Source of the DNA: Coprobacter tertius
GTDB taxonomy: Bacteria; Bacteroidota; Bacteroidia; Bacteroidales; Coprobacteraceae
Length of the DNA: 64,000 nt
Direction of reading: 5' to 3'
Assembly (NCBI RefSeq): GCF_024330105.1
Contig: NZ_JANDHW010000006.1
Span: 1-64,000 of the forward strand
Positions 27,762 through 30,476 of the stretch are shown piece by piece (positions within the stretch are counted from its first letter, which is position 1; each line of letters begins with the position of its first letter). The position numbers and the translations under genes are program-made. The notes beneath the pieces were generated by a model. That model ran no database searches. It was not told the origin of the DNA and worked only from the letters and a program-made list of their open reading frames with translations.

Positions 27762-28757
27762 TCAAGGTACTTCAACTTTATTCAAGATTTCGCTGATAAT
27801 TTCTTCAGCGGTCATATTATTCGCTTCAGCCTCATAACTCAGTCCGATACGATGGCGCATAACGTCGTAACATACGGCACGAACATCTTCGGGAATAACA
27901 TAACCTCTTTGTTTGAGGAATGCATACGAACGCGAAGCTAAAGCCAAATTAATAGAAGCACGAGGAGATGCTCCGAATGAGATCATTTCTTTCAGCTCAT
28001 TTAACCCATGATCCTGTGGGAAACGAGTAGCAAAAACTATATCTACAATATATTTTTCTATCTTTTCATCGATATAAACCTTACGCACGATATCTCGTGT
28101 TTCAATAATTTCTTCAGATTTTATAACCGGCTGTATCGAAGGACGATCTCCCGAAATATTCTGTCTTATGATCATTTTTTCTTCCTCTTTCTTCGGATAC
28201 CCGATTACGACCTTCAGCATAAAACGATCGACCTGAGCTTCAGGTAACGGATAAGTACCTTCCTGCTCGATCGGGTTCTGCGTCGCCATCACGAGAAAAG
28301 GATCATCTAACTTGTATGTAGTTTCGCCGATCGTCACCTGACGTTCCTGCATTGCTTCGAGTAAAGCACTTTGTACTTTTGCCGGTGCACGGTTTATTTC
28401 ATCCGCCAATACGAAGTTAGCAAAAATAGGTCCTTTTTTTACCACAAATTCTTCTTTCGCCTGACTGTACACCATCGTACCTACCACATCGGCAGGAAGC
28501 AAGTCGGGGGTAAATTGTATTCGGTTATATTTTGCATCGACTAAAGACGCCAATGTTTTAATAGCGAGAGTCTTTGCCAGACCCGGAACCCCTTCGAGCA
28601 AGATATGTCCATTAGAAAGAAGGCCTATCATCAGAGAATCTACCAAATGTTTCTGACCAACGATTACCTGATCCATACCTTGTGTAATCATATTCACAAA
28701 AGAACTCTTACTAGCAATCAACTCATTAAGTTCCCGAATATCTACTGTTTGACCCAT
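27762..28757 (-). CDS. moxR: MoxR family AAA+ ATPase
   Basis: 331 residues. Walker A is EGVPGLAKT (near residue 55), Walker B is VLADEINRAPAKVQSALLEA, and sensor 1 MATQNPIEQEGTYPLPEAQ follows; the C-terminal lid helices are also present. MoxR proteins act as chaperones that insert cofactors or mature partner VWA proteins. It is the first gene of the bat operon; a TAATTTTG box (minus strand, 28819-28826) about 60 bases upstream may be the promoter, though the -33 box is weak. Confidence 0.93.
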   Translation of the reverse strand: MGQTVDIRELNELIASKSSFVNMITQGMDQVIVGQKHLVDSLMIGLLSNGHILLEGVPGLAKTLAIKTLASLVDAKYNRIQFTPDLLPADVVGTMVYSQAKEEFVVKKGPIFANFVLADEINRAPAKVQSALLEAMQERQVTIGETTYKLDDPFLVMATQNPIEQEGTYPLPEAQVDRFMLKVVIGYPKKEEEKMIIRQNISGDRPSIQPVIKSEEIIETRDIVRKVYIDEKIEKYIVDIVFATRFPQDHGLNELKEMISFGASPRASINLALASRSYAFLKQRGYVIPEDVRAVCYDVMRHRIGLSYEAEANNMTAEEIISEILNKVEVP

Positions 28758-28930: not shown

Positions 28931-30193
28931 CTACTCATATTCCGACAGTATTTCCGTAGCTAATGCTTTCGCTTTTTCTATCGCATTTTTATCATCAGCA
29001 TTTATCCCGTATTTCGATTTTTCGGGAATTATCAACTTTGTTCCCACCGGAACGTGATTGGGGTTGGGTATAACCGACTTATTTTCACGATAAATATATA
29101 CCCAAAAAGCCTTATTCCCATAATGTTTTAATGCAATCGTCGTCAGGAATACTCCAGGACGCACAACCTCGGTAACTACATCTTGTCTAATTTTACTTTC
29201 AGTCGTCTGCCGTTTATCAACATTCATTAGTCCGGCTTTTTCAGTCTCACTTTCCTGTATTGCCGTTGCACCAATATCTTGCCCTTTACCGGCAACTACC
29301 ACATTCCTATCTTTTACAACCGCTGTTGTTTTTATCGAATCTGTTACTAAAGTACCAACAAGTGAAACGGTATCTTTGTTTTTGTCGGCATCTTCATTTT
29401 GTTTTTTAATAGTCACCGTTACAGGATCAATAGCAACATTTACTTTTCGCTCATTTTCATATCCCTGAAAATATATAAACAACAAAATACAGGCAATAAT
29501 TATAACAGAGGCCGTAAGAAATCCGGCCCAAAAATTAACCCGGCCTTTATATCGCGAAGAAACGGCAGAATATTCTTCTTCCATTTCTTTTTCATCTTCA
29601 GAAATTTCGTCTTCTCTTTCGGTAAAGACAGCTTCTCTCCCTTCCACCGATTTCACAACTTCATCTTCCTTTATTTCCAGATCTTCTTCAGGAACTTCCA
29701 TATTTGAACTTTCGATCTTTTCCGGCTCTATATTTTTAACGGTCTCAAACTTAAATTCTTCTTCAATAACCTCCTTTTCATTCTCAGTTATTCGTACTTC
29801 AACAGGAGAATCGTTTTCTGCTGAAACTTCAGCTTCTTCCTGTACCGTTCCGGTCACATTCAAAGGTGAATCATCCGGTAATATTTCCGACTCAAAAAAA
29901 GCAAACGGTGCATTTACAGCATCACGCATACTCTTATCAGGAACAAAAGACAATTTATAATGTCCCGGAATTTCATAAGGCAAACCTGTCTGCACATTTA
30001 TGCTACTGCGTTTTTCCACCCACACCCGCTTAAATATACCCAAGCCATTTATTTTCAAAAAATCTTCAGACAACAACACATCCAATGCCAATCCGAACAG
30101 TTCCCTCAGAAACGATTCCGAATCTTTTTTAGTACGGCCCGACTTTTGCGATAACAAATCGACCAACTCCGGTAAGGATATTTTACTGTTCAT
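28931..30193 (-). CDS. HU-domain, transmembrane, LysM-like fusion protein
   Basis: 420 residues with an unusual order. Residues 1-95 look like a HU/IHF DNA-binding domain (ELVDLLSQKSGRTKKDSESF, INGLGIFKRVWVEKRSSINV). Residues ~105-210 are highly acidic (Glu-rich). A single transmembrane helix lies at ~217-241 (NFWAGFLTASVIIIACILLF). The C-terminus at ~340-395 resembles a LysM-type module (LTTIALKHYGNKAFWVYIYR, NPNHVPVGTKLIIPEKS). The topology suggests the HU part in the cytoplasm and the LysM part in the periplasm, which would link chromosome and cell wall; this is inference. Overlaps the upstream HU gene by 11 bases. Confidence 0.75.
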   Translation of the reverse strand: MNSKISLPELVDLLSQKSGRTKKDSESFLRELFGLALDVLLSEDFLKINGLGIFKRVWVEKRSSINVQTGLPYEIPGHYKLSFVPDKSMRDAVNAPFAFFESEILPDDSPLNVTGTVQEEAEVSAENDSPVEVRITENEKEVIEEEFKFETVKNIEPEKIESSNMEVPEEDLEIKEDEVVKSVEGREAVFTEREDEISEDEKEMEEEYSAVSSRYKGRVNFWAGFLTASVIIIACILLFIYFQGYENERKVNVAIDPVTVTIKKQNEDADKNKDTVSLVGTLVTDSIKTTAVVKDRNVVVAGKGQDIGATAIQESETEKAGLMNVDKRQTTESKIRQDVVTEVVRPGVFLTTIALKHYGNKAFWVYIYRENKSVIPNPNHVPVGTKLIIPEKSKYGINADDKNAIEKAKALATEILSEYE

Positions 30194-30476
30194 TATCTGT
30201 ACTTTCTTTTAATTTGTTTTTAATCAATGTGCCCGGCTTAAACGTAAGCACGATTTTAGGGGGAATAAGCATTCTTTTCCCGGTAGCAGGATTTACGGAT
30301 ACCCGTTCGGCCCGTTTGCGAGGTTCAAAAGTACCGAAACCCTGAATCGCAAAAGAGTCCATTACTACACTACGTTCTTTTATAATTTGTAATGTATCGG
30401 ATAAAAGGCCATCGACATCTTTTCGAGACATCCCCAGACGCTTTTGTAACTCTTCGATAAATTGTTTGTGTTCCAC
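30183..30476 (-). CDS. HU family DNA-binding protein
   Basis: 97-residue HU/IHF type histone-like protein (IQGFGTFEPRKRAERVSVNP and MLIPPKIVLTFKPG are typical of the beta-arm region). Binds and bends DNA. First gene of a pair; its last 11 bases overlap the start of the HU-TM-LysM gene, so translation is probably coupled. It starts 182 bases from the divergent ppk gene; no clear promoter boxes were seen. Confidence 0.88.
   Translation of the reverse strand: MEHKQFIEELQKRLGMSRKDVDGLLSDTLQIIKERSVVMDSFAIQGFGTFEPRKRAERVSVNPATGKRMLIPPKIVLTFKPGTLIKNKLKESTDNEQ

Follow-up and report, generated by a model that had tools for sequence, protein, structure and literature searches.

In the window, by which we mean the whole stretch of 64,000 nucleotides of Coprobacter tertius DNA analysed here, two overlapping genes, HU1 and HU2.TM.LysM, lie on the reverse strand (Table 1). 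Computation shows the domain order of the HU2.TM.LysM protein to be HU, acidic linker, single membrane helix, a predicted periplasmic linker and LysM module. Both proteins match Pfam PF00216 above its curated cut-off of 22.4 bits, HU1 with an E-value of 5.4e-22 (78.3 bits) and HU2 with 6.1e-15 over residues 9-94 (55.7 bits), confirming the N-terminal HU domain proposed in an earlier sequence-only reading. Residues 101-217 of the linker (117 aa) contain 34 E and 7 D against 8 K and 4 R (D+E, 35%), and residues 221-242 are the sole hydrophobic segment, with a Kyte-Doolittle value of 2.6 over 19 residues and a runner-up of 1.16; the Glu-rich linker and the single transmembrane helix of that reading were thus found as described. 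The LysM-type module carries a motif kept in the family, YG...FW.YIY..N...I.NP.....G...IP. With the window protein and L007 as its only input rows, AlphaFold2 gave a mean pLDDT of 37.3 for the full length and 51.5 for the LysM part.

Table 1 Features of the HU1-HU2 unit and its neighbour in the window
Feature	Coordinates	Strand	Description or basis
HU1, soluble HU/IHF-type subunit, dedicated partner of HU2	30183..30476	-	97 aa, GTG start, PF00216
Overlap of HU1 and HU2 frames	30183..30193	-	11 bases, sequence ATGAACAGTAA
HU2.TM.LysM, anchored subunit	28931..30193	-	420 aa; ORF read with Pfam, NCBIfam, profiles and hydropathy
HU2 HU domain, residues 1-97	29903..30193	-	Arm tip NVQTG replacing NPxTG
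Acidic cytoplasmic linker (predicted side), residues about 98-217	29543..29902	-	Composition, hydropathy
Membrane helix, residues 221-242	29468..29533	-	Hydropathy; RYKGR just before
Periplasmic linker (predicted side), residues about 243-336	29186..29467	-	Hydropathy, sequence
LysM-type module, residues about 337-392	29018..29185	-	Family profile A2 and conserved motif
moxR, frequent downstream neighbour, outside the unit	27762..28757	-	Neighbourhood comparison

Pairing of HU1 with HU2

The frames of HU1 and HU2 share exactly 11 bases, as had been reported. The neighbour had been called a normal HU gene, a description that does not hold: it belongs to a dedicated HU1 clade, which the HU1 profile (E<=1e-20) detected in 26 of 198 genomes of the window's order, directly adjoining HU2 in all 26. 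No solitary HU1 was found in the 198 genomes at this threshold; as the A6 rows came partly from the same genomes, recovery of those was expected, and the lack of a solitary HU1 is the informative part. In a tree of 78 HU rows, HU1 and HU2 formed separate groups (support 90/61 and 100/98), the tree having few columns and weak inner forks. An initial count covered 33 pairs of the order, with overlaps of 4, 8 or 11 bases in 29 and gaps of 6-14 bases in four; the coordinates of four further pairs show three overlaps and a single 3-base gap.

At four loci in two families, L111 and L118 (f31) and L119 and L126 (f132), HU1 and HU2 are fused into a single chain. The first halves score 47.5, 52.1, 29.1 and 21.0 bits with the HU1 profile against 18.6, 20.0, 14.9 and 7.4 with the HU2 profile, in that order of loci; the second halves score 50.4, 39.8, 22.1 and 19.5 bits with the HU2 profile against 11.0, 15.9, 3.5 and 4.8 with the HU1 profile. 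Pfam detects no HU in L126, whose assignment as a fusion comes solely from these two profiles. HU1 and HU2 are therefore a two-subunit HU head on a membrane-LysM tail and, from the pairing and the fusions, we infer that they probably form a heterodimer of the IHF type. The best PDB match of HU2 is integration host factor 2iie (204 aa, two matched stretches, E 3.9e-20), which we take to be a single-chain IHF. Like the pair, IHF alpha/beta and the single-chain form consist of two diverged HU subunits working together, but IHF is soluble, whereas HU2 is membrane-anchored; neither HU1 (58.4 bits) nor HU2 (20.8 bits) reaches the 111-bit cut-off of the NCBIfam IHF alpha/beta equivalog.

Distribution, membrane topology and LysM identity

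The 198 genomes, taken evenly from the window's order, were searched with the HU2 profile and the A2 LysM profile. The former gave 27 matches at E<1e-22, each within a frame of 313-726 aa that also has an A2 LysM match. Divergent or arm-less forms were recognised through LysM matches, followed by reading of the loci, in nine more genomes (G029, G426, G459, G372, G034, G430, G380, G464 and G431), bringing the carriers of the HU-TM-LysM plan to 36 of 198. With G003, G004 and G015, and G628 and G649, these provide 41 main loci, of which 37 are two-gene pairs and four are fused. L100 (on the contig of L007), the OmpA proteins L108 and L125, and the paralogues L127 and L133 were dropped from this set. 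Weak LysM matches in short frames (115-176 aa) of G019, G369, G393, G395, G439, G458, G473 and G495 were not counted as carriers; the one in G019 (L021) is, by eye, a 147-aa BON-LysM-like protein. Additional LysM matches beyond the main locus occur in G340, G421, G430, G468 and G492. The second copy in G468 (L127:2654-4540, +) has a long EEAKR-rich stretch, a membrane helix and a LysM, preceded by a degenerate N-terminal HU-like part, and gave no clear case of a fused pair. At L133:3060-4456 (+), an arm-less HU-TM-LysM stands in tandem with a TM-LysM protein lacking HU, in a genome that has the usual pair elsewhere.

Among 247 genomes of the class, all seven matches at E<1e-29 fell in the window's order, and the other listed frames had 191 aa or less. 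In 296 genomes of the phylum, a long HU2 frame (351-577 aa) was present in 30 genomes of family f60, which belongs to another class; a profile built mainly from f60 returned the same 30 and three of the window's order as the only listed frames above 171 aa. Restriction of the pair to the window's order is thereby ruled out. Twenty of the 30 f60 loci were fetched, and each has HU1 immediately upstream, with an overlap in 18 and a 2-base gap in two, together with a single strong membrane segment and a match to the A2 LysM profile at E 2.8e-4 or better. As the 41 main loci of the order and all 20 of these share the HU-TM-LysM plan, it lies far beyond chance.

In the order, 28 of the 41 loci have moxR downstream on the same strand, at 59-244 bp in 27 and 1653 bp in one; of the 13 loci without it, L137 offered just 223 bases of room. 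Other neighbours are rimO, upstream in 15 of the 41, and ppk, divergent in six. None of the 20 fetched f60 loci yielded a moxR, and at the four with listed flanks the pair sits between unrelated genes. Because the other class keeps the pair without the moxR-bat neighbourhood, what is conserved is the pair itself rather than its surroundings. The HU1-HU2 unit is genuine and widely distributed, and its interest lies more in the pairing than in the oddity of a single protein.

Membrane topology was scored on 39 ORFs (37 main ones, L127 and one of L133). All 39 have one segment above 1.5 and no second above 1.6; L134-L137, for which second-best values were also computed, have one strong segment each, as do the 20 other-class loci, scored for their best segment. 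The positive-inside bias is modest, basic residues before the helix exceeding those after it in 27 of 39, with three ties and nine reversals, and in 33 of 39 the linker preceding the helix is the more acidic of the two. A topology with the N terminus inside and the C terminus outside is supported by the single membrane segment of all 39 and by the LysM evidence given below. The acidic linker, 55-441 aa long across the 39 members, keeps its composition and no conserved sequence. Of the two roles suggested for it earlier, a spacer fits, whereas a conserved DNA mimic is not supported.

The LysM-like nature proposed for the C-terminal module was upheld by profile comparison. Pfam PF01476 gave no match in the window protein, even at E<=10 on the C-terminal 91 aa, and the NCBIfam YgaU/LysM model matched with E 5.6e-7, under its cut-off. 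Family profile A2 matched the LysM of Kbp (E 3.5e-8), a phage tail LysM (9g8s, 8.6e-5) and fungal Ecp6 (0.0022) in the PDB, and homologue L135 passes the Pfam cut-offs for both LysM (30.1 against 20.9 bits) and HU in one chain. In L134 (G628), neither A2 nor Pfam detects the LysM, which is LysM-like by eye only. The nearest solved LysM by sequence is thus that of Kbp/YgaU, a BON-LysM protein that differs in having neither HU nor membrane helix; Kbp binds potassium and is not known to bind the wall. The LysM subtype of HU2 is also found at the end of two OmpA-barrel proteins (L108:4253-5938, -; L125:4076-5752, -), beside their OmpA wall-binding domain. As these must face the periplasm, the LysM module of HU2 is likely to be periplasmic as well.

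Among the closest known designs is HU-CCDC81_bac (PF18174/PF18175)-TM-SPOR of Bacteroidetes, which likewise combines a pair of HU domains with a membrane helix and a module that binds the wall. It differs in carrying both HU domains in one chain and SPOR as wall module, whereas the HU1/HU2 pair is IHF-like, has LysM in that place and is encoded by overlapping genes that only some lineages have fused. The window genome itself encodes such a protein on contig C5 (L034:664-1677, -; 337 aa), with the two HU-CCDC81 domains (PF18174, E 4.7e-24; PF18175, 3.5e-9), a membrane helix by eye and SPOR (8.1e-7), and PF18174 is present in 38 of 41 related genomes. PF18174, PF18175 and SPOR have no match in the window HU2.TM.LysM protein; some homologues touch PF18175 under the cut-off (best 6.1e-5, 23.3 against 35 bits). 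Kinship of the pair with CCDC81 HU domains was unsupported by hhalign, the probabilities being 43.5 for HU1, 0.9 for HU2 and 3.0 for the fused form in a comparison against a single CCDC81 sequence (motif recovered one of four). Burroughs et al. (2017, Cell Cycle) reportedly predicted a chromosome-partition role for the CCDC81-type HU proteins of Bacteroidetes, so the idea of a wall-tied HU head is probably already in print. A literature search at the level of result listings met no paper on HU joined to LysM.

What the HU head may bind

In the window, the arm tip of HU1 (NPATG) has the proline, and that of HU2 (NVQTG) has V where HU/IHF proteins have a kinking proline. Across the 37 pairs of the order, the HU2 tip is V in 25, I in five, E in one and P in two, with none in four. 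The two P-tipped proteins, L136 and L137, belong to families f96 and f32 and group with none of the other HU2 rows in the tree, and in the other class the tip reads NPQT by eye in 20 of 20. On the simplest reading, the arm proline of HU2 would be ancestral and another hydrophobic residue replaced it in most of the order. HU1 has its proline by pattern in 29 of 37 pairs and by eye also in L115, L134, L135 and L137. The arm of HU1 in the other class (L138-L157) is unusual and mostly reads YNPHY instead of NPxTG.

The HU2 arm is deleted at four loci (L105, L114, L115 and L116) that represent two families and hence at most two events. These deletions coincide with loci where the NP motif of HU1 is lost or changed, which suggests that the two arms change together. 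With the arm lost, some lineages may use the HU head for protein binding. In the order, HU2 is nearly neutral to acidic (net charge -12 to +3) and HU1 ranges from -2 to +10; in the other class the ranges are -7 to +3 for HU1 and -6 to +9 for HU2.

The reading that we prefer is a two-subunit HU/IHF-type head, ancestrally DNA-binding, held to the cell wall, and as a whole we consider it about evenly balanced. Soluble HU1 and anchored HU2, whose frames overlap, would be co-produced and pair as a heterodimer on the cytoplasmic side of the inner membrane, where the acidic linker of variable length would act as a flexible spacer holding the head off the membrane. One helix would span the membrane, and a second linker would reach the LysM module, which would grip peptidoglycan. 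If the ancestral and commonest form of the head binds DNA, the nucleoid would be loosely tied to the wall, with a possible role in nucleoid positioning or segregation. A DNA-to-wall tether is plausible from the anatomy. In favour of the model as a whole we counted the constant position of HU1 beside HU2, their separate groups on the tree, the fusions, the LysM match in every strong HU2 frame, the other-class pair with NPQT arms, the IHF match and the periplasmic LysM subtype. Against it we counted the V tip of HU2, the arm deletions, the low HU2 charge, Kbp as the closest LysM, the modest charge bias and the failure of AlphaFold2 to give a structure of useful quality. That some lineages have lost the arm argues against such a tether being universal.

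The main rival, which we think unlikely, is that the HU pair is a protein-binding head, as in a RodZ-like or CCDC81-like adaptor, linking a cytoplasmic machine (MreB, division or MoxR-Bat) rather than DNA to the wall. RodZ likewise has a cytoplasmic DNA-binding-type fold, one membrane helix and a periplasmic part, but with HTH instead of HU and no LysM. A RodZ-type HTH_25 was not found in the window genome, whereas 13 of 14 controls have one (the exception being Bacteroides ihuae). This observation would fit an adaptor, as would the HU2 arm deletions, the degenerate HU halves of fused L119 and L126, the low HU2 charge and the moxR gene downstream at 28 of 41 loci. However, the HU2 of the other class has canonical NPQT arms and no moxR neighbour, and HU1 keeps NP arms at most loci. 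Much less probable is a membrane-bound regulator in which LysM senses the state of the wall and the HU head alters nearby transcription, for example of moxR-bat: membrane-bound one-component regulators exist and moxR is within 244 bp at most loci of the order, but HU-type heads show little sequence preference in their DNA binding and the neighbourhood is not retained in the other class. Least probable of all is a LysM module acting as a small-ligand sensor rather than a wall binder, for although Kbp is its best PDB match, fungal and phage LysM proteins match too, and in L108 and L125 the subtype lies next to the OmpA domain, a fold that itself binds the wall.

Returning to the wall-held head, we regard it as possible, at somewhat less than an even chance, that, in addition to HU-CCDC81-SPOR, a wall-anchored, IHF-like heterodimer serves as a second tether between nucleoid and wall, with a two-gene unit encoding it in no fewer than two classes of the phylum and one chain mechanically holding DNA to peptidoglycan. 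The pair would explain the purpose of an HU gene that otherwise looks like an orphan. It bears on how bacteria hold and move their chromosome relative to the envelope and, if one protein does reach across DNA, membrane and wall, direct anchoring would be testable by a single deletion.
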